Origin: Streptomyces sp. NBC_00414
GTDB lineage: Bacteria > Actinomycetota > Actinomycetes > Streptomycetales > Streptomycetaceae
Length of the DNA stretch: 64,000 bases
Assembly: GCF_036038375.1 (NCBI RefSeq)
Contig: NZ_CP107935.1
Span: 9,362,001 to 9,426,000, forward strand
Reading direction: 5' to 3'
The first letter of the stretch is position 1. Each line of letters starts with the position of its first letter. This document shows positions 15,306-25,441 of this stretch, one piece after another. The position numbers and the translations under genes were made by a program. The notes under the pieces are model-generated. The model saw only the letters and a program-made list of their open reading frames with translations, was not told where the DNA came from and did no database searches.

Positions 15306-15358
15306 ACCTCTCGGCCGGTGCACCACCGCTCCGCCGTCCTCCGTCTTTGTCATGACCC

Positions 15359-15388
15359 TTGCCGCTTGGGTGATCGGACCTCTAGCGT
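15359..15388 (+). promoter_or_regulatory. Possible promoter of the GH95 gene
   Basis: TTGCCG (15359-15364) and TAGCGT (15383-15388) are separated by 18 nt, and the ATG is 9 nt after the second hexamer, which would give a leaderless or nearly leaderless transcript. Confidence 0.35.
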
Positions 15389-15396
15389 CAGGGGTC

Positions 15397-17847
15397 ATGT
15401 CGTTTCAGTCACCTGAATCACCTGAGTCATGTGAACCGCACGATGCGCAGACGACCCCTCAGCCTTCCCGAAGAGCCACGCTGATAACCGCAGTCGGCGG
15501 GGCGGCCGGCCTCGCCCTGGGCTCCGGGGCCCTGGCGTCCACCGAGGCGGTGGCCGCAGATACATCGGATGTGTCGTCGCTTCCGTCCCCCGGACTCTCC
15601 TCCCTCTGGTACACCACCCCGGCCGGCGACTGGGAGCGTGAGGCGCTGCCCATCGGCAACGGCGCCCTCGGCGCCACGGTGTTCGGCACCCTCGCCTCCG
15701 AGCGGCTGCAGTTCAACGAGAAGACCCTGTGGACCGGCGGCCCCGGTTCGGCTCAGGGATACGACCACGGCAACTGGCGCGACGCCCGCCCCGGCGCGAT
15801 CACCGCCGTGCAGGACCGTATCGACGCCGGGACCCGTCTCTACCCCGAGGCGGTGGCCGACGAACTCGGCCAGCCGAAGGCCGGGTACGGCGCCCACCAG
15901 ACCTTCGGCGATCTCCACATCGACGTTCCGGACGCGCCGACGGCGCCCCCGGAGACGTACCGGCGCGAGCTCGACATCGCCAACGCCATGGCCACCGTCG
16001 TCTACACCCACCAACAGGTACGCCATCAGCGGGAGTTCTTCGCCTCGTACCCCGACGGCGTGATCGTGGGACGGCTGAGCGCGGACCGGCCGGGCCGTGT
16101 CGCCTTCACCCTTCGTTACTCCTCGCCCCGCAGCGACTTCACCGTGACCGCGTCCGGCGGAAAGCTGACGGTCCGCGGCGCGCTCGCCGACAACGGACTG
16201 CGCTTCGAGGCGCAGATCCGCGTACGGGTACGGGGTGAAGGGGGCACCGTCACCTCGAACCCCGACGGCACCGTCACTGTGACGGGCGCCGACAGCGCCT
16301 GGTTCGTGCTGGCCGCCGGTACGGACTACGCCGACACGTACCCCGACTACCGGGGCGAGGACCCGCACGCCGCCGTCTCCCGCGCCGTCGACGAGGCGGG
16401 CGAACGGTACGAGTCGCTGGTGGCCCGTCATGTGCGGGACCACCGCGCCCTGTTCGGCCGGGTGGCCCTGGACATCCGCGCCGAGGTTCCCGAGGTCCCG
16501 ACGGACCGGCTGCTGGCGGGCTACACCGGCGGCACCACGGCCACGGACCGCGCCCTGGAAGCCCTCTACTTCCAGTACGGCCGCTACCTCCTCATCGCGT
16601 CCTCGCGCCCCGGCTCGCTGCCCGCCAACCTTCAGGGCGTGTGGAACAACAGCACGTCACCGCCCTGGTCGGCCGACTACCACGTCAACATCAACCTGCA
16701 GATGAACTACTGGCCGGCCGAGGCGGCGAACCTCGCCGAGACCACGGCGCCGTACGACCGCTTCGTCGAGGCACTGCGCGCACCCGGACGCCGTACGGCG
16801 AAGGAGATGTTCGGCTCGCGGGGCTGGGTCGTGCACAACGAGACCAACCCGTACGGCTTCACCGGCGTGCACGACTGGGCCACCGCCTTCTGGTTCCCCG
16901 AGGCGGCCGCGTGGCTGACCCAACAGCTGTACGAGCACTACCGGTTCGGCGGGTCCGTCGACTACCTGCGCTCGACCGCGTACCCGGTGATGAAGGAGTC
17001 CGCCGATTTCTGGCTCGACAACCTGCGCACCGATCCGCGCGACGGCACACTCGTCGTCACGCCCAGCTACTCGCCCGAGCACGGGGACTTCACCGCGGGC
17101 GCCGCCATGTCCCAGCAGATCGTGCACGACCTGCTGACCAGCACCCTTGAGGCGGCCCGCACCCTGGGCGACAGCCCCGCGTTCCGCGCAGAGCTGGAGA
17201 AGGCCCTCGCCGGCCTCGACCCCGGCCTGCGGATCGGCTCCTGGGGCCAGCTCCAGGAGTGGAAGGCGGATCTGGACGACCCCAAGGACGACCACCGGCA
17301 CGTCTCCCACCTCTACGCGCTGCATCCCGGCCGTCAGATCGAACCGGGCAGCGCATGGGCCGACGCCGCGAAGGTCTCACTCACCGCCCGCGGTGACGGC
17401 GGAACCGGCTGGTCCAAGGCCTGGAAAATCAACTTCTGGGCCCGGCTGCGCGACGGCGACCACGCGCACAGGATGCTCGGCGAACAGCTCAAGTCCTCGA
17501 CCCTGCCGAACCTCTGGGACACACACCCGCCGTTCCAGATCGACGGCAACTTCGGAGCGACCTCCGGAGTCGTCGAGATGCTGCTGCAGAGCCAGTACGA
17601 CGTCATCGAGATCCTCCCGGCGCTGCCCGCCGCCTGGCGGGACGGCTCGGTCAGCGGGCTGCGCGCCCGCGGCGGCGCCACCGTCGACATCGAATGGGCC
17701 GACGGCCGCGCGACCCGCATCACGCTGACCGCGTCCCGCACACGGCGCCTCACCGTCCGAAGCGACCTGCTGCCGGACGGCGGGACGACGTTCAAGGCGA
17801 TCGCGGGACGGAGGTACGTCTGGGGCGAACAGCCCGACAGGACCTAG
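15397..17847 (+). CDS. Secreted glycoside hydrolase family 95 (alpha-L-fucosidase type)
   Basis: 816 residues from ATG 15397. Twin-arginine signal: [10 protein letters not shown] then a small-residue hydrophobic core ending in ALAS near 50, indicating folded export by Tat. The mature part has the GH95 order: N-terminal beta domain ([33 protein letters not shown]), (alpha/alpha)6 catalytic barrel with [18 protein letters not shown] near 430-447, HNETNPYG near 484, and [15 protein letters not shown] near 712-726 containing the conserved catalytic-site aspartate, then a C-terminal beta domain. GH95 enzymes release terminal L-fucose or L-galactose from plant, algal or mucin glycans. No sugar transporter or regulator is adjacent. 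Confidence 0.9.
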
Positions 17848-19055
17848 GCCGGCGCTCCCAGGAAGTGGAAGCCGGGCCGCGGATGCATGAGGAAGTCGTG
17901 ATGGGAGATGTTCCACGCGTACGCACCCGCGAGCCCGAACGCCACACGGTCGCCCGCCCGGAGCGCCGACGCGGGCACGTTCCGGGCCAGGACGTCCTTC
18001 GGAGTGCACAACTGGCCGGTGAGCGTGACGAGTTCGCCTCGCGCGACCGGCCGGGCCCATGGGTGCGGCCAGCCCTCCACCCTCAGTAGCGTGCAGGGCT
18101 GGTCGTGCCCCTTGGTCGCCGGAGTGCGCAGGTGGTGCGTCCCGCCGCGCACCACGGCGAACTCCTCTCCGTGGCTGCGTTTCACGTCCAGCACCTCGGT
18201 CGCGTACCAGCCGCAGTACGCCGTCAGCGCCCGCCCGGGCTCGATACGCAACGTCAGAGCCGGGTGTCGCGACAGGAGTTGCGCGAGGCCGACGCCGTAC
18301 ACGCTCCAGTCGAACCGCTCGTCGGGAGCCGCGTAGTCGACCGTCATGCCCCCGCCGACGTTCACCTCCGCCGGCCGCACCCCGTGCCGCTCCGCCAGGC
18401 GAACGGCCCAGTCCACGATGGACTCGGCCATCGCGAGCTGCTCCGGAGCCCGCAGCCCGCTCGCCAGGTGAGCGTGCACGCCCTTGAACTCGAGATGTGG
18501 ATAGGTGCCGTCGGTGAGCAGCCCCATCACCGTGTCCGCCTGGGCCGGGTCCATGCCGAAGGGGCTGGGGCGCCCGCCCATCGCGAGGGCGCTCGCCGCC
18601 AACGAGGCCGACGTCACAGGGAGGTTGAAGCGCGGCAGAACCCCCACCCGGCCGTCCGGAGCTACCTGCCGGGCCAGTTCGGCCAGCACGTGCAGTTCGT
18701 ACTCGCTCTCCAGATGGAAGCGCTCCACGCCCAGCTCCAACGCGGCCACGATCTCGGCGGGAGTCTTGCCGGGGCCGCCGAAGGCCAGCGGGCGGCCCGG
18801 CACCGCCTTGGCGACATGGGCGAGTTCACCGCCCGACGCGACCTCGTAGCCGTCCACGTACGGGCCCAGCGCGGCCAGGATCTCCGGCTCCGGGTTGGCC
18901 TTCGCCGCGTAGTACAGCTCGACGCGCTCGGGCAGGGAGGCCCGCACGGTCGCTGCGTGCGCCCGCAGCGCCGCCAAGTCATAGACGTACGCGGGTAGTT
19001 CGTCGGAGGTCAGGGAGAGTACCCGGTCCCGTACGGCGTCGGTGGGATCGGTCAT
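17844..19055 (-). CDS. PLP-dependent type III (alanine-racemase fold) decarboxylase, PvsE-like
   Basis: 403 residues; the ATG at 19055 overlaps the upstream NIS synthetase stop as ATGA, so the two are co-translated. It should decarboxylate an amino-acid-derived intermediate during siderophore assembly. Seen: the PLP lysine in [11 protein letters not shown] near 50, [10 protein letters not shown], the phosphate-binding glycines in [11 protein letters not shown] near 232, RIEPGRAL near 270, and the second-subunit active-site cysteine in [10 protein letters not shown] near 347. Family: DAP/ornithine decarboxylases. In vibrioferrin synthesis the equivalent PvsE acts on O-citryl-serine; the match of gene order suggests a similar step. 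Convergent with GH95, sharing the palindrome CTAG as both stop codons. Confidence 0.88.
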
Positions 19056-20986
19056 CGGGTACTCCCGGTGGTGGTGGAGGGCGCGGTCATGGCCGCGCTC
19101 GTGTGGCGCGGGATGCCTTCGCCGAGGGGTGAGGCCAGACGGACGTATCCGGCCTCGCGGTCGGCCATGCGCTCCCAGCGGGTGAGGAGGTTCGTCTTGG
19201 CGGGCAGCGGCACTCCCGCGAGCAGCGCGGCAAGCGGCGGCGGGCAGCCGTACCGGTCGGCGTACGTCCGGAGGGTGCCGCGGACCTCCGCCCACAACGC
19301 GGCCTCGGCGTGCGGATGCAGATCGGCGATGGCGGCGAGCAGCTCGGCGACGTGGTTCACGAGCAGGCAGTAGACGACCCGGTCCCAGCCGCGCTGCGCG
19401 TCGTACGTCATCGGGGCCGCGACCTCGGGCGGCAGCGAGGCGAGGGTCCCGGTGTGCCGCTCGGGCACGAGCTTGGTGCCCTCCAGGTCCCGGAAGAGGA
19501 CCTGGGCGGGCATGCCGTCGCCGTCGACGCAGATCAGCACGTTCTGCAGATGGGGTTCCAGCACCAGACCGTGGTCGAAGTAGGCGGCGAGGACCGGCGG
19601 CACGAGCAGCCTGAGGTAGGCAGCCCACCAGTCGAGCGCGGCTCGCGGCCCGGCCCCGCCGAGGAGGCGGGAGATGTGCGCCGGACCGGTGGGGTACTCG
19701 TCCGCCACGGCCGCCGCGAGCAGCGGGGTGGTGCCGGGCAGGAGCCGTCGGCCCAGGCCCTCGCGGACGATGACGCCGAAGCCTTCGAGCAGCTCTCGGT
19801 CCGGTGTTCCGTCCGGGCCGGGCAGGGCGAGGCTGCGGTAGGCGGGTTCGCGGAGCACCGCGCTGCCGGGGAACCGGTCGGCCAGGTCGGCCAGCACCGG
19901 GCCCAGCACACGGGTGAGGGCGACGGCGCCGGACAGCTCGTAACTGGCGTTCTTGCGCAGGCAGTTGGTGATCCTGATGTTCAGGCTGAACTTCAGGAAC
20001 GACTCGCCGTCGTACAGGGTCCGCACGGATGCGGTGGCGGCGAAGGGCCTGCCGCTCGGCCCTAGGTCGAGGATGTCCCCGCGTCCGAGAGCCGCACGCA
20101 GCGCCGGGTGCTCGCGCAGCATCTCGAACTGCCAGGGGTGCGCGGGCAACAGCCGGTACCCCTCGGGGACGGTGGCGATGTCCTGCCCGGCCTGCCTGCC
20201 CTGCCCGGTCGGCCGGTCGCGTGGGTCCCGTGGGTCCCGTGGGCCGAGTCGGCCCAGCCGGTCGAGCGCGTCCAGGGCGCCGGGCTCCGCGGACTCCTCC
20301 GCGATCAGGTGTTCGCGCACGGCGAGGTGGCGCAGCGGGAAGACCGCGGCCGCCTCCGGCGCGTAGGCAGGCCAGGAGTCCGCGTCCCCGGTGCGCGCCT
20401 TGGGAGTGGGATGGAAGCGGTGCCCGAACAGCAGCGACTGTTCGGAGGCGAGATAGGCGGCGACGGGCGTGTCCGCCGGCGCGGGGCCGCTCCCCGGCTG
20501 TACGGGGTGGGCAGTTGGGGCGGTCCCGGTCGTCCGTACGGGGAGGGTCGCGGCGACGCTCCGGTGGCTGGAGTCGACCTGCTCCAGGAACTCCTCGTTG
20601 CGCACTCCGGTACGCAGGGACAGCTCGTCCTGCGTGTGCTCGGCCAGCCGCCGCCAGCCGATCTCGCTCCAGCCACCGTCCGCCGTCTGCTCACTCACCG
20701 GCCCGGTGAAGCGGTGTGCGCCGAGCATCGACGTACGGCGCAGCGCGACACGCAGCAGCACACCGCACCGGGGCAGCCGCAGCAGCAGATGGCGGTCGGT
20801 GAGCGCGCTCTGGTGCTCGGGGGCCGACACCTCGCGCAGCAGACAGTTGAGGAGGGTGTGGGTCACGGCCTCGTCCGCGGAGGGGAGTTGAGGGGGCTGT
20901 GCGGCGGGACCGGGGGCGGGGCCGAGGACGCGGCTGGGGGCGGTGGAGAGGGAAGTGCTACCGAGCGACTCGGTCAGCGAGGGCAT
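19052..20986 (-). CDS. NRPS-independent siderophore (NIS) synthetase, IucA/IucC family, PvsD-like position
   Basis: 644 residues from ATG 20986 (GGAG 6 nt upstream); a TTG at 21007 would add seven residues. NIS synthetases adenylate a carboxylate, usually citrate or a derivative, and condense it with an amine or alcohol. Seen: GHRFHPTPKAR (ATP-binding region), LLPAHPWQFEMLREHP near 285, FLKFSLNIRITNCLRKNASYE near 330-350, LVLEPHLQNVLICVDGDG and VLFRDLEGTKL. The order of these segments is full-length. An insertion of charged DPRDPRDRPTGQGRQAGQ repeats (about 255-272) precedes the HPWQ motif. By position it corresponds to PvsD (citrate plus serine). Separated by 120 nt from the upstream NIS gene. 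Confidence 0.9.
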   Translation of the reverse strand: MPSLTESLGSTSLSTAPSRVLGPAPGPAAQPPQLPSADEAVTHTLLNCLLREVSAPEHQSALTDRHLLLRLPRCGVLLRVALRRTSMLGAHRFTGPVSEQTADGGWSEIGWRRLAEHTQDELSLRTGVRNEEFLEQVDSSHRSVAATLPVRTTGTAPTAHPVQPGSGPAPADTPVAAYLASEQSLLFGHRFHPTPKARTGDADSWPAYAPEAAAVFPLRHLAVREHLIAEESAEPGALDALDRLGRLGPRDPRDPRDRPTGQGRQAGQDIATVPEGYRLLPAHPWQFEMLREHPALRAALGRGDILDLGPSGRPFAATASVRTLYDGESFLKFSLNIRITNCLRKNASYELSGAVALTRVLGPVLADLADRFPGSAVLREPAYRSLALPGPDGTPDRELLEGFGVIVREGLGRRLLPGTTPLLAAAVADEYPTGPAHISRLLGGAGPRAALDWWAAYLRLLVPPVLAAYFDHGLVLEPHLQNVLICVDGDGMPAQVLFRDLEGTKLVPERHTGTLASLPPEVAAPMTYDAQRGWDRVVYCLLVNHVAELLAAIADLHPHAEAALWAEVRGTLRTYADRYGCPPPLAALLAGVPLPAKTNLLTRWERMADREAGYVRLASPLGEGIPRHTSAAMTAPSTTTGSTR

Positions 20987-21106
20987 GTGCGGCTCCAGCA
21001 AGTGCAAATGAGAGCGAAGTATGGTCGCGCGTACGGAGGTCGGGGCGACGGCGATGGCCGCGCCGATCCGGGCGGGGAGGGGGCCGGCAGGGCTGCGCCT
21101 CGGGGC

Positions 21107-23035
21107 TCAAGCCGAACCCCCGGTCTGCAGCAGGTAGTTGGGTCCAGTGGTGTAGTGCTTGTTGATGTCCGCCGCGCCGGACCGTGCCTTGGTGAGGAGC
21201 GTTCCGGCGGTGACCATCGCCTTGACCGGCAGACGCGGTGCGTCCAGCACCCGGGCACGCAGCACGGCGCCGGGCTCGCCCGGTCCCGTCCCCAGCCGTT
21301 CGATCGCCTCGGCGAGCCGGTCACGCACGAGCCGCAGCAGCACCGGCAGCGGCGCGCGGCCGTGTCTCGCGAGCCCGAAGGCGTAGGCGCCCGCGCACAG
21401 ATGGACCGTGATCGTCGTGAACAGGTCGACGACCGGCCCGTCCCCCTCGGTGAAGGTCCGGACGTCGTCGAAGTCTCCGGGCCCCGGAGCGGCGGCCCCC
21501 AACCGGTCGCTCAGACGCGCGCCGTTGATGCGCGGCCCGTCGTTGTCCTTCAAGAGCAGCCGCAGCCTCGTACGGCCGTTGTGCTGCCGGTCGAGGACCA
21601 TCGAGACGTTCTGCTGGTGCGACTCAAGCGCGATTCCGTACCCGAACAGCGTGGTCTGCCAGTCGAAGAGCAGGGTCAGACAGGCGTCGAGCAGCCCGAG
21701 GACGTCACCGGAGTAGAAGCGGTCGGCCAGGTGGTCGACGACCAGCCGTCCGCCGGGCGCTTCGGCGAGCAGCGCGGCCATGGGCACGACGACGGAGTCC
21801 TGGAGGCCGTCCGGGTAGCGCCGGAACAGCGCGGCGAGCAGTTCGTGCCCGGCATGCGCGTACACGGTCTCGTCGGCGTGCAGGATCGTGCTCCGGAAGC
21901 GCGGCTCGCGGGCGATGATCTGCTCGATCAGCCGCTGTCCCGCGGCCCCGTCGAGGAGTGTGCCGGGTTTGATCGTCCGCCGGTTGAGCAGCCCCAGTGT
22001 GGCGGTGGCCAGGGGGAGTTTGACATGCAGGGACGGCTCCGCGGACAGGGCCACGGTACGCATCGACAGGGTCGACACGGCTTCGAGACGGGCGCGGTCG
22101 GCGAGCACGGCCCGGTCCGTCAGGCCCGTGGCGCGCAGGGCTCCTTCCAGCGCGGGGCCGACGGTCAACGGGTGTACGGGCAGCGCCACATGCGTACGGT
22201 CGAGCCCCGCGAGCCCGAGTCGCGCGGGCGTCGGCCAGCGGTCCGGAAGTGTCCCGGTGACCGCCTCCTGCGGCACGGCGAGCCAGCGCAGAGCGAACCG
22301 GGGCGCCGACTCCGGGGCGTACAAGATGAGTTGCCGCTCGTTCAGCCCGGACCGGCCGCGTGCGGTGGGGTAGACGGGGTGGTCCAGGCGGGCGGCGAGG
22401 GCGTCGTACGCCATTCCTCCGGCCAGCCCCGACCAGGCGGCCGGATCGTTGCCATGACGCTCCGTCAGCCGCTCGGCCGTCGCGTCCCGGGTCGCGGTGT
22501 GCAGCCGCATGGTGGCCAGCGTCTGCCGGCACTCGACGGCGAACGCGTCGAACCCTTCCCGGTCGAGGGGGTGGGCGAGGACGCGCAGGGCGCCGAGGAT
22601 CGCGTCGCACGTCCCGTGGACCACGGGCGCGGCTCTCCCTGCCCCCTCGGCTCCCCTGAACCCCTGGCGCCCTTCTGCTTTCCCGGATCCCTCGGTCCCC
22701 TCGGCGCTCCCGGATCCCTCGGCGCTCCCGGACCCCTCGGTCCCCTCGGATTCCCGCACGAGCATGGGCAGTCGGGCCGCGTACTCGCATTGGAACCCGT
22801 CCGCGACGACCGGCAGCAGCAGAGACTGGCCCTTTCCGGCGGCCCGTCGAAGCCAGGCGCCGTCCGGCCGGTGCACGAGCCTGCCGGACGAGCGCAGGCC
22901 GACGACGTCCTCGCGGAGCAGGGCGCTGAGCACCCGGATCACCAGTTCGCCCTCGGTGGCATCAGTGGCGTCGGCCTCCGGGGGCGTGCCGCCTTGGCCG
23001 CCACCGGCGCCGGTATCGGTGAAGGAGACGGTCAC
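21107..23035 (-). CDS. NRPS-independent siderophore (NIS) synthetase, IucA/IucC family, PvsB-like position
   Basis: 642 residues from GTG 23035, which overlaps the upstream ATP-grasp stop as GTGA; a GTG at 23050 with no better leader is less likely. Core motifs: VALPVHPLTVGPALEGAL, LHVKLPLATATLGLLNRR, TIKPGTLLDGAAGQRLIEQI near 350-370, YGIALESHQQNVSMVLDR and LLLKDNDGPRINGARL. This is a complete NIS synthetase of a different subtype from its partner. About residues 90-125 carry a striking low-complexity insertion of EGTEGSGSAEG-type units encoded by tandem repeats of a GGATCCCTCGG-like motif. In the vibrioferrin model this enzyme would add the last carboxylate (2-oxoglutarate). The substrate here is unproven. 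Confidence 0.9.
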   Translation of the reverse strand: MTVSFTDTGAGGGQGGTPPEADATDATEGELVIRVLSALLREDVVGLRSSGRLVHRPDGAWLRRAAGKGQSLLLPVVADGFQCEYAARLPMLVRESEGTEGSGSAEGSGSAEGTEGSGKAEGRQGFRGAEGAGRAAPVVHGTCDAILGALRVLAHPLDREGFDAFAVECRQTLATMRLHTATRDATAERLTERHGNDPAAWSGLAGGMAYDALAARLDHPVYPTARGRSGLNERQLILYAPESAPRFALRWLAVPQEAVTGTLPDRWPTPARLGLAGLDRTHVALPVHPLTVGPALEGALRATGLTDRAVLADRARLEAVSTLSMRTVALSAEPSLHVKLPLATATLGLLNRRTIKPGTLLDGAAGQRLIEQIIAREPRFRSTILHADETVYAHAGHELLAALFRRYPDGLQDSVVVPMAALLAEAPGGRLVVDHLADRFYSGDVLGLLDACLTLLFDWQTTLFGYGIALESHQQNVSMVLDRQHNGRTRLRLLLKDNDGPRINGARLSDRLGAAAPGPGDFDDVRTFTEGDGPVVDLFTTITVHLCAGAYAFGLARHGRAPLPVLLRLVRDRLAEAIERLGTGPGEPGAVLRARVLDAPRLPVKAMVTAGTLLTKARSGAADINKHYTTGPNYLLQTGGSA

Positions 23036-24207
23036 GGCTGGATCTCCCACCGCTGCTCGGCCAGGAACCCGGCCACCGCCTTGTCCACGTCCTCCTGGAC
23101 GGTTCCGGTGGCCCTCACCACGCCGAGGAAGTCACGGTTGGTGCGATACACCTCGTGCCGCTCGCCGACCTCCCGCAGCGGACGGTAGGTCAACCGCACA
23201 CCCCCGACCGTCAGTTCGGTTGCGGCCGGGGCGGCGGTCAGCGTTCCCGCGCTCGCGGCGCACGGGTAGTCCAGCCGGGCCACGCCGTCGCTCCGCGCGC
23301 CGAGCGAGGCGGGCAGGGGCTCACCCAGGTGCGTACGCAGGATGTGCTCGAAGAGCGGGATCTCCAGCAGGTGGGCCAGCAGCAGATCGCACTGGTCGCC
23401 GATGGCGCGGTAGTTGACCTCGATGATTCTCGCCCGGCCCTCGTGCACCACGAACTCGGTGTGGCAGGCGCCGAAACCGACTCCGAGCACGTCGAGTTGC
23501 GCCAGCACCTGGGCCACGACCGCTTCGGGATGGGCCGCGACGAAGGTCAGCCGCTCCTCGACGAAGTACGGCGGCGGGGACAGCACGGTGTGGAAACCGC
23601 CCAGCACATGGCGCACGCGACCGTCCCCGAGCGTCTCCAGGGTGTAGAGCTCCCCGGGCAGATACTCCTCGACGACCAGGGCGGCCCCGGGGCGCCGGCC
23701 CCGGATCTCCGCGCAGCGCGCCACCAGCTCCTCGGCCCCCTCGACGCGTACGACGTCCTCGCTGGCCACGCCCTCACGCGGCTTGACGACACACGGGTAC
23801 GGCACGTCGAGGGCGGCCACGTCCGTGTCCTCGGTGACTTCGGCCGACCACACCGTGTCCGCGCCGGAGGAGGCGAGATGGCGCCGCATCTCCGCCTTGT
23901 CCTTGGTGCGCAGGGTGACCCACCAGTCCTTGCCCGGCAGGCCGAAGTAGTCGGCGGCCAGGGCGGCCTGGGTCTGCAGGTGATCGCTGTTGGAGAAGAC
24001 CGCCTCGGGACGGCCCAGCGTCGAGATCCGGGTCACGACGGAGCGGAAGTCGCGGACGTCGCACTCCAGGACCTCGATCCCCGGATACACGCGCCGATGG
24101 GCGTCCGGCTGGTCGGTGAGCACGGTCACGTCCAGGCCCAGCCGCGCGGCGGCGGGCAGAAACCCTTCGGTGACGGAGTCGGTGGGGTTGAGGGCAAGCA
24201 GATACAT
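23032..24207 (-). CDS. ATP-grasp ligase, PvsA-like
   Basis: 391 residues from ATG 24207 (a GTG at 24213 is possible). The N-terminal Rossmann-like part (MYLLALNPTDSVTEGFLPAA) is followed by an ATP-grasp fold: AEMRRHLASSGADTVW, PYPCVVKPREGVASEDVV (lysine and glycine-rich loop), ALVVEEYLPGELYTLETL, and GFGACHTEFVVHEGRARIIE then NYRAIGDQCD (metal-binding glutamate and asparagine). It should join a carboxylate to an amine through an acyl-phosphate. In vibrioferrin synthesis PvsA adds L-alanine; the position as first gene of a coupled four-gene operon matches. The last residues overlap the next gene's start. Confidence 0.85.
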   Translation of the reverse strand: MYLLALNPTDSVTEGFLPAAARLGLDVTVLTDQPDAHRRVYPGIEVLECDVRDFRSVVTRISTLGRPEAVFSNSDHLQTQAALAADYFGLPGKDWWVTLRTKDKAEMRRHLASSGADTVWSAEVTEDTDVAALDVPYPCVVKPREGVASEDVVRVEGAEELVARCAEIRGRRPGAALVVEEYLPGELYTLETLGDGRVRHVLGGFHTVLSPPPYFVEERLTFVAAHPEAVVAQVLAQLDVLGVGFGACHTEFVVHEGRARIIEVNYRAIGDQCDLLLAHLLEIPLFEHILRTHLGEPLPASLGARSDGVARLDYPCAASAGTLTAAPAATELTVGGVRLTYRPLREVGERHEVYRTNRDFLGVVRATGTVQEDVDKAVAGFLAEQRWEIQP

Positions 24208-24586
24208 GCGCACGCGGGGGAACAACTTCCGCTCGTAGGTAGGCGGTTGATGGTGAGCTGGTGAGACGGGGCTCGGCCCGCGGACGCACGGAACATGCGG
24301 GGGCTCCGGCGCCGGCGGAGAGCACGGATGCGTGCGGGCGCCGGGCGGTACGCGGGCGCGCACCCGTAGGCGCGGCCCGCGCAGGTGCGACCTGTTCGGC
24401 CGCGGTCACATTGAGTGAGATCAGCTTAGGCATGTTCTGTTTCTCGACCAGCTATGAATCCACTGTGACGTGCACCTCCCTTGATCGTTGTCTCGGGGGT
24501 GCCGTCACGCGCTGCTGTTGGCGATCTCTATACTAAGGTAAGCCTTACCTGCTTTTCTCGCTTTGTCCCCATGCACAGGAGTACCG
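24208..24586. other. Divergent intergenic region of the siderophore locus
   Basis: The 379 nt between the ATP-grasp start and the FhuF-type gene hold the iron box (24534-24552) and a TATACT hexamer at 24529-24534. The ATP-grasp-proximal 170 nt are GC-rich, with no clear second iron box; TTAGGC near 24425 is at best a half site. A frame starting ATG at 24433 on the minus strand (MPKLISLNVTAAEQ) has no ribosome site and I do not call it. Confidence 0.6.
24534..24552. promoter_or_regulatory. DmdR1/IdeR-type iron box
   Basis: AGGTAAG-C-CTTACCT (24536-24550) is a perfect 15-bp palindrome, and the surrounding 19 nt match most positions of the actinobacterial iron box TTAGGTTAGGCTAACCTAA. It overlaps the end of a TATACT -10-like hexamer and lies 36 nt upstream of the FhuF-type start codon. 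Iron-loaded repressor bound there should switch off the reductase, and possibly the divergent siderophore operon, when iron is plentiful. Confidence 0.82.
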
Positions 24587-25441
24587 ATGACCGTGGCCCT
24601 GGAGACTCAGCCGACCGGTGCGCCCACGACCGTGTCCGGCCTGCTCTCCGACACGTACCGACAACTGGCCGAGGTGTGCCGGGCGTTGACGGTGCGTGTG
24701 GCCGACCCGGCGGCGTTCTTCACCCAAAAGGGCCTGAGCGGCGCGGAGTTGACGAAGGATCAAGTGGCCCTTGAGGCCTTCCTCTCGGCCGAGGACCTGC
24801 GCATCAGGGAACGCTACGACCACGTCCCCCGCCGGGACGTCGCCGCGTCCCGCGCCCTCCACGACTACGCGTGGTCGGTCGGCCTGCTGATGAGCGGCGT
24901 CTGGTACCTCACCGGCCGGGTGCCGCGCATCCGCCCCGAGGACGTACGCATCGACCTGGCGTCCGGCACGTTCGAGATCAACCCCGGACCGGACCTGGCC
25001 TGTCTGCCGGACGATCCGGCCGGCGCTCTCCCCGGAGTCCTGACCGTCCCTCACGAGGAGGCTCTGCGGGCGGAGTTGAGGGTCGCCGTCGCCGATCACA
25101 TGGAGCCGCTGCTCTCCGCGATCGCCCCGTACATCAGGCGTGGTCCGCGCGCACTGTGGGGCCTGGTCACCGACGACCTCGTCTCCGGCATCTGGTACCT
25201 CGGCCGCATGCTCGGCCGGGAACAGGAATCCGTGCGGGCCGCGACCGCACTGCTGCCCTCCGCCGTCCCGCCCTTCCCCGGGGGAGCGGACTTCCGCCAC
25301 CTCACCGGTGGCGACGGCCGACAGCATCCGACCCGCACCCGTATGGGCTGCTGCCTCTACTACACGATCCGCCCCGCCGAGGCCTGCGCCACCTGCCCGC
25401 GCACCTGCGACGCCGAGCGGCTGCGCCGGATCGAGTCCTGA
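24587..25441 (+). CDS. FhuF-type [2Fe-2S] ferric-siderophore reductase
   Basis: 284 residues from ATG 24587 with AGGAG 5 nt upstream. FhuF-family proteins reduce ferric siderophores at the cytoplasmic side and release Fe(II). The diagnostic C-terminal cluster ligands are present: GCC, ten residues, then C-ATC (Cys-Cys-x10-Cys-x2-Cys, about residues 256-271). Upstream helices DLVSGIWYLGRML and GLLMSGVWYLTG resemble the family core. It is transcribed away from the siderophore biosynthesis operon across an iron box, which makes it the likely reductase for the product of that operon. Confidence 0.85.
   Translation: MTVALETQPTGAPTTVSGLLSDTYRQLAEVCRALTVRVADPAAFFTQKGLSGAELTKDQVALEAFLSAEDLRIRERYDHVPRRDVAASRALHDYAWSVGLLMSGVWYLTGRVPRIRPEDVRIDLASGTFEINPGPDLACLPDDPAGALPGVLTVPHEEALRAELRVAVADHMEPLLSAIAPYIRRGPRALWGLVTDDLVSGIWYLGRMLGREQESVRAATALLPSAVPPFPGGADFRHLTGGDGRQHPTRTRMGCCLYYTIRPAEACATCPRTCDAERLRRIES

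Follow-up and report, generated by a model that had tools for sequence, protein, structure and literature searches.

What becomes of a siderophore gene cluster when the genes whose products would carry its molecule out of the cell, and back in again, are gone? The question is raised by an operon in the stretch of Streptomyces DNA analysed here, 64,000 nucleotides at 9.36–9.43 Mb of a single 10.35-Mb contig, which is called the window and whose own numbering is used for all features below. Siderophore clusters are usually pictured as units for making, exporting and re-importing; here synthesis and a cytoplasmic reductase have outlasted the transporters, and have done so under selection.

The operon and the relics in and beside it

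Four enzyme genes occupy the minus strand from 24213 down to 17844, all with open frames, and are in sequence of PvsA, PvsB, PvsD and PvsE type. The first, for an ATP-grasp ligase (23032–24213; Pfam ATP-grasp_4), starts with GTG at 24213, the ATG at 24207 that had earlier been taken as its start being internal. It is followed by a PvsB-type NIS synthetase gene, NIS-1 (21107–23035; Pfam IucA_IucC and FhuF domains), then by a second NIS synthetase gene, NIS-2 (19052–20986; the same two domains), assigned by phmmer matches to AcsD to the PvsD/AcsD, citrate-activating type A, and finally by a PvsE-type gene for a PLP-dependent decarboxylase (17844–19055; Pfam Orn_Arg_deC_N and Orn_DAP_Arg_deC). 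Open frames and Pfam matches bear out the order ATP-grasp, NIS, NIS, PLP decarboxylase given in the earlier note, and the 120-nt gap that it placed between the two NIS genes is exact (21106–20987). Its three overlapping junctions need amendment: the operon has three junctions in all, those at 23032–23035 and 19052–19055 are overlaps of 4 nt, and the third is the 120-nt spacer itself. A further 4-nt overlap, at 17844–17847, lies outside the operon, between the 3′ end of the decarboxylase gene and that of a convergent GH95 (alpha-L-fucosidase-type) gene at 15352–17847. NIS-1 carries at residues 94–135 (about 22630–22755) a low-complexity insertion of ~40 residues, rich in Ser, Glu and Gly, that is missing in the homologue at locus L050. 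The same genome has two more IucA/IucC gene pairs, at 3036841–3040749 and 2432634–2434929 (G000:C1; L002, L003, L005, L006, L077), and a single strong IucA/IucC match at 6.50 Mb (L001), with seven NIS domains in total.

Did the spacer once hold a gene? In a first set of 40 stretches, of which 39 belong to other genomes or contigs and the last is another NIS site of this genome, a gene of ~1.2 kb stands exactly between NIS-1 and NIS-2 in ten. Nine of these are single reading frames with 7–9 predicted membrane segments, and L042, the tenth, has its MFS match divided between frames. The gene is Pfam MFS_1, with 33–47% identity to PvsC references and far less closeness to SbnD. At L039, the sister locus and the closest with complete data, an intact PvsC-type exporter gene lies exactly there, and the spacer of the window (20987–21106, minus strand) aligns locally, over nearly its full length, to the 3′ end of that L039 gene with a score of 96.5, the best of 500 shuffles reaching 54.5. 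The alignment was repeated against 42 intact exporter genes, and the relic is common to the S. tauricus, S. dioscori and S. apricus loci. The earlier note had read the spacer as a sign that a gene was lost or replaced and proposed looking for an MFS gene at this place in other Streptomyces; about 40 have an intact PvsC-type exporter gene there, and, to judge by the relic together with these homologues, the spacer is what remains of a deleted pvsC. The same relic test gave nonsignificant or marginal results at L040/L142, L046, L053, L061, L070, L111, L144, L164, L168 and L183, and we claim no relic there.

That pvsC had simply moved elsewhere was considered and rejected: this genome has no other PvsC homologue (best match 24 bits), and whole-genome searches of 25 exporter-less genomes found no match in 24 and a relic only in one, with nine of nine exporter-bearing controls positive. 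Clustering of the genes that neighbour exporter-less clusters revealed no common replacement exporter. One group of complete clusters (L048, L050, L051, L054, L058 and others) has, on the far side of fhuF, an ABC transporter built like an exporter (ABC_membrane and ABC_tran), as have two exporter-less loci, L121 and L122.

The earlier note limited the loss to pvsC, and this is where its account, right about that gene, falls short in extent. Complete Streptomyces clusters have two FecCD permease genes, an ATPase gene and a binding-protein gene between the fhuF-like gene and pvsA. In the window, 24553–24267 aligns to L123 from the iron box and leader into the first codons of its intact permease gene, with a score of 130.5, to which the conserved promoter contributes a part, against 65.5 for the best shuffle, and the ATG at 24433 matches the start of the L123 permease gene. 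The 5′ end of a FecCD-type permease gene, the first of the importer, is thus recognizable on the minus strand between 24433 and about 24267, so that the four-gene ABC importer is evidently deleted here too. Apart from this permease relic no cognate importer genes were found beside the operon, and at L039 the importer is reduced to a relic in which permease and binding-protein fragments are fused. Many exporter-less genomes encode an unlinked substrate-binding protein 45–49% identical to the lost one; this genome is not among them and has no orthologous binding protein, the nearest substrate-binding protein being 32% identical. In three exporter-bearing loci (L116, L148 and L162) the importer is just 46–60% identical to the usual one, perhaps through non-orthologous replacement.

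Between the fhuF-like gene and pvsA there now stands an iron-box-like palindrome, AGGTAAGCCTTACCT (24536–24550, plus strand), in the divergent promoter. A pattern search of the window finds it as the sole match at up to one mismatch, where 0.01 is expected, and it is identical in L039; the full 19-bp iron-box consensus has no match in the window at up to 3 mismatches, and the 15-bp core alone matches. The palindrome, which we take to be the site of a DmdR/IdeR-type regulator, would place the operon under iron control. The divergent gene (24563–25441, plus strand) encodes a FhuF-like ferric-siderophore reductase with a 2Fe-2S C-terminus (Pfam FhuF_C) that scores below the NCBIfam cut-offs for FhuF, and a gene of this kind adjoins most relatives of the operon.

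Recurrent loss of transport, and selection on what is kept

How often has this happened? A close NIS-1 homologue is present in about 48 of 199 Streptomyces genomes, about a quarter. A second scan, of named genomes, added 80 loci, partly from the same genomes as the first set, and at least 501 related stretches were found. Of the 83 loci tabulated, 38 have the exporter and the importer intact and 31 have neither; six keep the exporter without the importer and none keeps the importer without the exporter, the remainder being undecided where contigs end. L105 and L114 are counted here as exporter-lacking, though with contigs that end before the exporter place they are really undecided. Of the six with exporter only, L039 and L109 have importer relics, and L130 and L177 are close to the ends of their contigs; L176 is partial, and in L178 (Austwickia) there is no importer of this type. 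The one-sidedness of this table (six against none), together with the intermediates L039 and L109, suggests that the importer was lost first and the exporter second.

Dollo parsimony gives 19 exporter losses, or 18 with L114 set aside, and Fitch parsimony gives 18 exporter changes as against 28 for shuffled labels; the tree behind these counts is approximate, with some weak nodes and some loci at contig edges, and the figure serves as a guide. The exporter would thus have been independently lost about 18 times. The relics end at different points in L045, L049, L121 and the window, which shows that several of the losses were independent. L060–L072 form a separate, mostly exporter-less group whose operon lies elsewhere on the chromosome, next to a 522-aa gene resembling, by eye, an acyl-CoA carboxylase subunit.

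Are the remaining genes still of use to the cell? Median pairwise dN/dS values for pvsA, pvsB, pvsD, pvsE and fhuF are 0.23–0.32 for exporter-less pairs and 0.20–0.30 for exporter-bearing pairs. Between the window and S. tauricus they are 0.12 for pvsA, 0.33 for pvsB, 0.22 for both pvsD and pvsE, and 0.19 for fhuF; for pvsA against its nearest relatives the range is 0.12–0.25, and for the FhuF-like gene 0.19–0.28. Purifying selection on the enzyme genes and on that for the FhuF-like reductase is as strong here as where the clusters are complete.

We hold it probable that the PvsA-B-D-E pathway still yields, when iron is limiting, a vibrioferrin-like citrate/2-oxoglutarate carboxylate siderophore, the importer and then pvsC having been deleted, and that unlinked transporters move the product. 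The ancestral unit would have comprised fhuF on one side of the iron box and, diverging from it on the other, two permease genes, those for the ATPase and the binding protein, and pvsA, pvsB, pvsC, pvsD and pvsE. In the lineage of the window the importer genes, then pvsC, would have been deleted, with short relics left and pvsA brought near the iron box. The product would now most likely be carried by non-dedicated transporters encoded elsewhere, and the retained FhuF-like protein would free the iron in the cytoplasm. We infer in this way the product, reaction order, regulation and replacement transport of the window operon, gene order, subtype, both relics, the lack of a pvsC relative and purifying selection being what the analysis itself demonstrates; for transport, substitution by unlinked transporters is the simplest view.

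However, the co-loss of the transporters raises the question of how, or even whether, the molecule leaves and re-enters the cell. Might it have been repurposed, staying inside as a chelator or buffer of iron or another metal, so that the cell no longer needed a dedicated exporter and importer and lost them repeatedly, with synthesis kept? Importer and exporter have been lost together many times and the exporter never ahead of the importer, the exporter-less genomes searched have no homologous exporter elsewhere (24 of 25 without a match, one with a relic), the enzymes are under purifying selection and the cytoplasmic FhuF-like reductase is mostly kept, all of which fits such a role. Against this, unrelated transporters could serve, and many exporter-less genomes, though not this one, do have the unlinked binding protein (45–49%); repurposing is to be reckoned a small chance. 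The broader proposition is also unlikely, namely that many Streptomyces have freed vibrioferrin-type synthesis from dedicated transport by repeated, ordered deletion, of importer and then exporter, and that synthesis was kept under selection since the carboxylate product acts intracellularly as an iron chelator or buffer and not outside as a secreted siderophore. The complete clusters, the intermediates that have lost the importer and the stripped ones form a natural series for testing either dedicated transport or an intracellular chelator role.

Is the cluster instead on its way out, transport having gone first and the enzyme genes now decaying or lately freed from selection? Two deletions have already occurred, and the insertion in NIS-1 (residues 94–135, missing from the L050 homologue) could be taken in the same sense. 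However, dN/dS among the window, S. tauricus and S. dioscori (0.12–0.33) is that of exporter-bearing pairs, and decay of the enzyme genes was not supported by this test; frames and conserved NIS residues are intact, and all four genes are kept in whole exporter-less clades. A dying cluster is accordingly quite improbable.

Enzyme family, gene order and the proposed pathway

The Pvs references were annotated plasmid clusters of Vibrio, Cupriavidus, Rhodococcus, Pantoea and Piscirickettsia, named from their gene order, neighbouring genes and annotation rather than from chemistry; those of other types were for staphyloferrin B (Pseudonocardia), achromobactin (Sodalis) and aerobactin (E. coli). 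All four window proteins find their best matches in the Pvs set, Rhodococcus first (PvsA 51, PvsB 41, PvsD 47 and PvsE 55% identity). The PvsA-type protein is also 49% identical to that of Cupriavidus and 35% to that of Vibrio, and the PvsE-type protein 43% identical to that of Vibrio. For NIS-1 the bit score is 351 with PvsB and 97 with SbnC, and in an IQ-TREE phylogeny NIS-1 falls in the PvsB clade, with bootstrap 99 for its grouping with Rhodococcus PvsB and 100 for its separation from SbnC and the achromobactin enzyme. NIS-2 is in the PvsD and AcsD clade (bootstrap 100; phmmer E about 1e-67 to the AcsD structures 2w02 and 3ffe), and the decarboxylase matches 6knh, presumably SbnH, with E 2e-75. 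The conserved NIS residues are all kept save one L-to-V change in NIS-2. The vibrioferrin subtype called in the earlier note, which had suggested alignment with Pvs and Sbn enzymes, is in this way supported by pairwise scores and by the NIS tree: the four proteins are best with Pvs, NIS-1 is apart from SbnC, and in place of a grouping with the staphyloferrin B or aerobactin type NIS-1 goes with PvsB and NIS-2 with PvsD. The operon belongs to the Pvs enzyme family, not to the complete Pvs system, because the MFS exporter PvsC that characteristically lies between B and D is in the window a 3′ relic only, and is without a homologue in the genome.

Enzymes of achromobactin and staphyloferrin B also give good scores with NIS-2 and the decarboxylase, so might the pathway be a different one? 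Staphyloferrin B was rejected as the window has no significant SbnA or SbnB match and two NIS genes, not three; achromobactin, as two NIS genes and an ATP-grasp gene are found where three NIS genes and no ATP-grasp gene are expected, with NIS-1 outside the achromobactin clades; and aerobactin, as ATP-grasp and decarboxylase genes take the place in the operon of lysine hydroxylase and acetyltransferase, and the NIS proteins do not group with IucA/IucC. With the PvsA-type ATP-grasp present and NIS-1 beside PvsB at bootstrap 99–100, another NIS pathway is very improbable.

The A-B-D-E order is seen again in nearly all Streptomyces relatives examined, and in its full form, A-B-C-D-E, in Rhodococcus, Cupriavidus, Pantoea, Piscirickettsia and Vibrio; given this recurrence it is no chance arrangement. 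That no gene ever stood in the spacer, and that exporter and importer were gained jointly in the lineages with both, is hardly credible, for although gain by transfer could also yield the interleaving of presence and absence on the tree, several exporter-less loci (among them L045, L049, L121 and the window) have exporter and importer relics with differing end points, and the order with C is that of Rhodococcus, Cupriavidus, Vibrio and others.

If the pathway is of vibrioferrin type, what would its steps be? The basis for the PvsD step, in which citrate is joined to serine, is the AcsD model. If the steps resemble those for vibrioferrin and achromobactin, PvsD would activate citrate and couple L-serine to it, and PvsE would decarboxylate the PvsD product to a citryl-ethanolamine ester. 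The ATP-grasp enzyme PvsA may then add an amino acid, which in vibrioferrin is alanine, and PvsB 2-oxoglutarate. The building blocks of vibrioferrin are citrate, ethanolamine, alanine and 2-oxoglutarate (PMC5577590); the same paper gives an enzyme order other than the one proposed here and calls the enzyme functions untested.

The operon beside known systems

The earlier note held a vibrioferrin-type cluster to be notable for an actinomycete. That has not stood: besides its presence in about a quarter of the 199 Streptomyces genomes, a vibrioferrin-like cluster of S. avermitilis, SAV_7320-7323, has already been named avs (PMC9394381), and weak vibrioferrin similarity was reported by antiSMASH in another Streptomyces (PMC7385001). 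A vibrioferrin-like cluster in an actinomycete is already known; the notable part is the recurrent loss of dedicated transport with synthesis kept, and one open-access library yielded no description of recurrent, ordered loss of the transport genes of this cluster.

In the V. parahaemolyticus model, vibrioferrin is served by pvsABCDE and the importer pvuABCDE (PMC5577590, PMC8875612). The window agrees with it in its four enzyme families and in their order, with 32–43% identity to the Vibrio proteins, and the place of the lost gene is that of pvsC, the PvsC-type MFS proteins of the relatives being 36% identical to the Vibrio one. Unlike the Vibrio cluster, pvsC is a relic in the window, there is no TonB receptor (the cell is Gram-positive), an FhuF-like reductase gene is divergent, and the importer of the lineage, now deleted, stood upstream of pvsA. 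The avs cluster is like the window by description: its gene list has three siderophore synthetase components, then a diaminopimelate-type decarboxylase, and no MFS gene (PMC9394381). Plasmid pRWAY01 of Rhodococcus sp. WAY2 (L080) provides the best matches for all four window proteins (41–55% identity); unlike the window it keeps pvsC and the ABC importer, and it has an extra gene of the aldolase/citrate-lyase family. In complete Streptomyces clusters (such as L050, L119 and that of S. cyaneochromogenes, L147) the same operon, with enzymes 65–81% identical to those of the window, is found with pvsC and the four importer genes intact.
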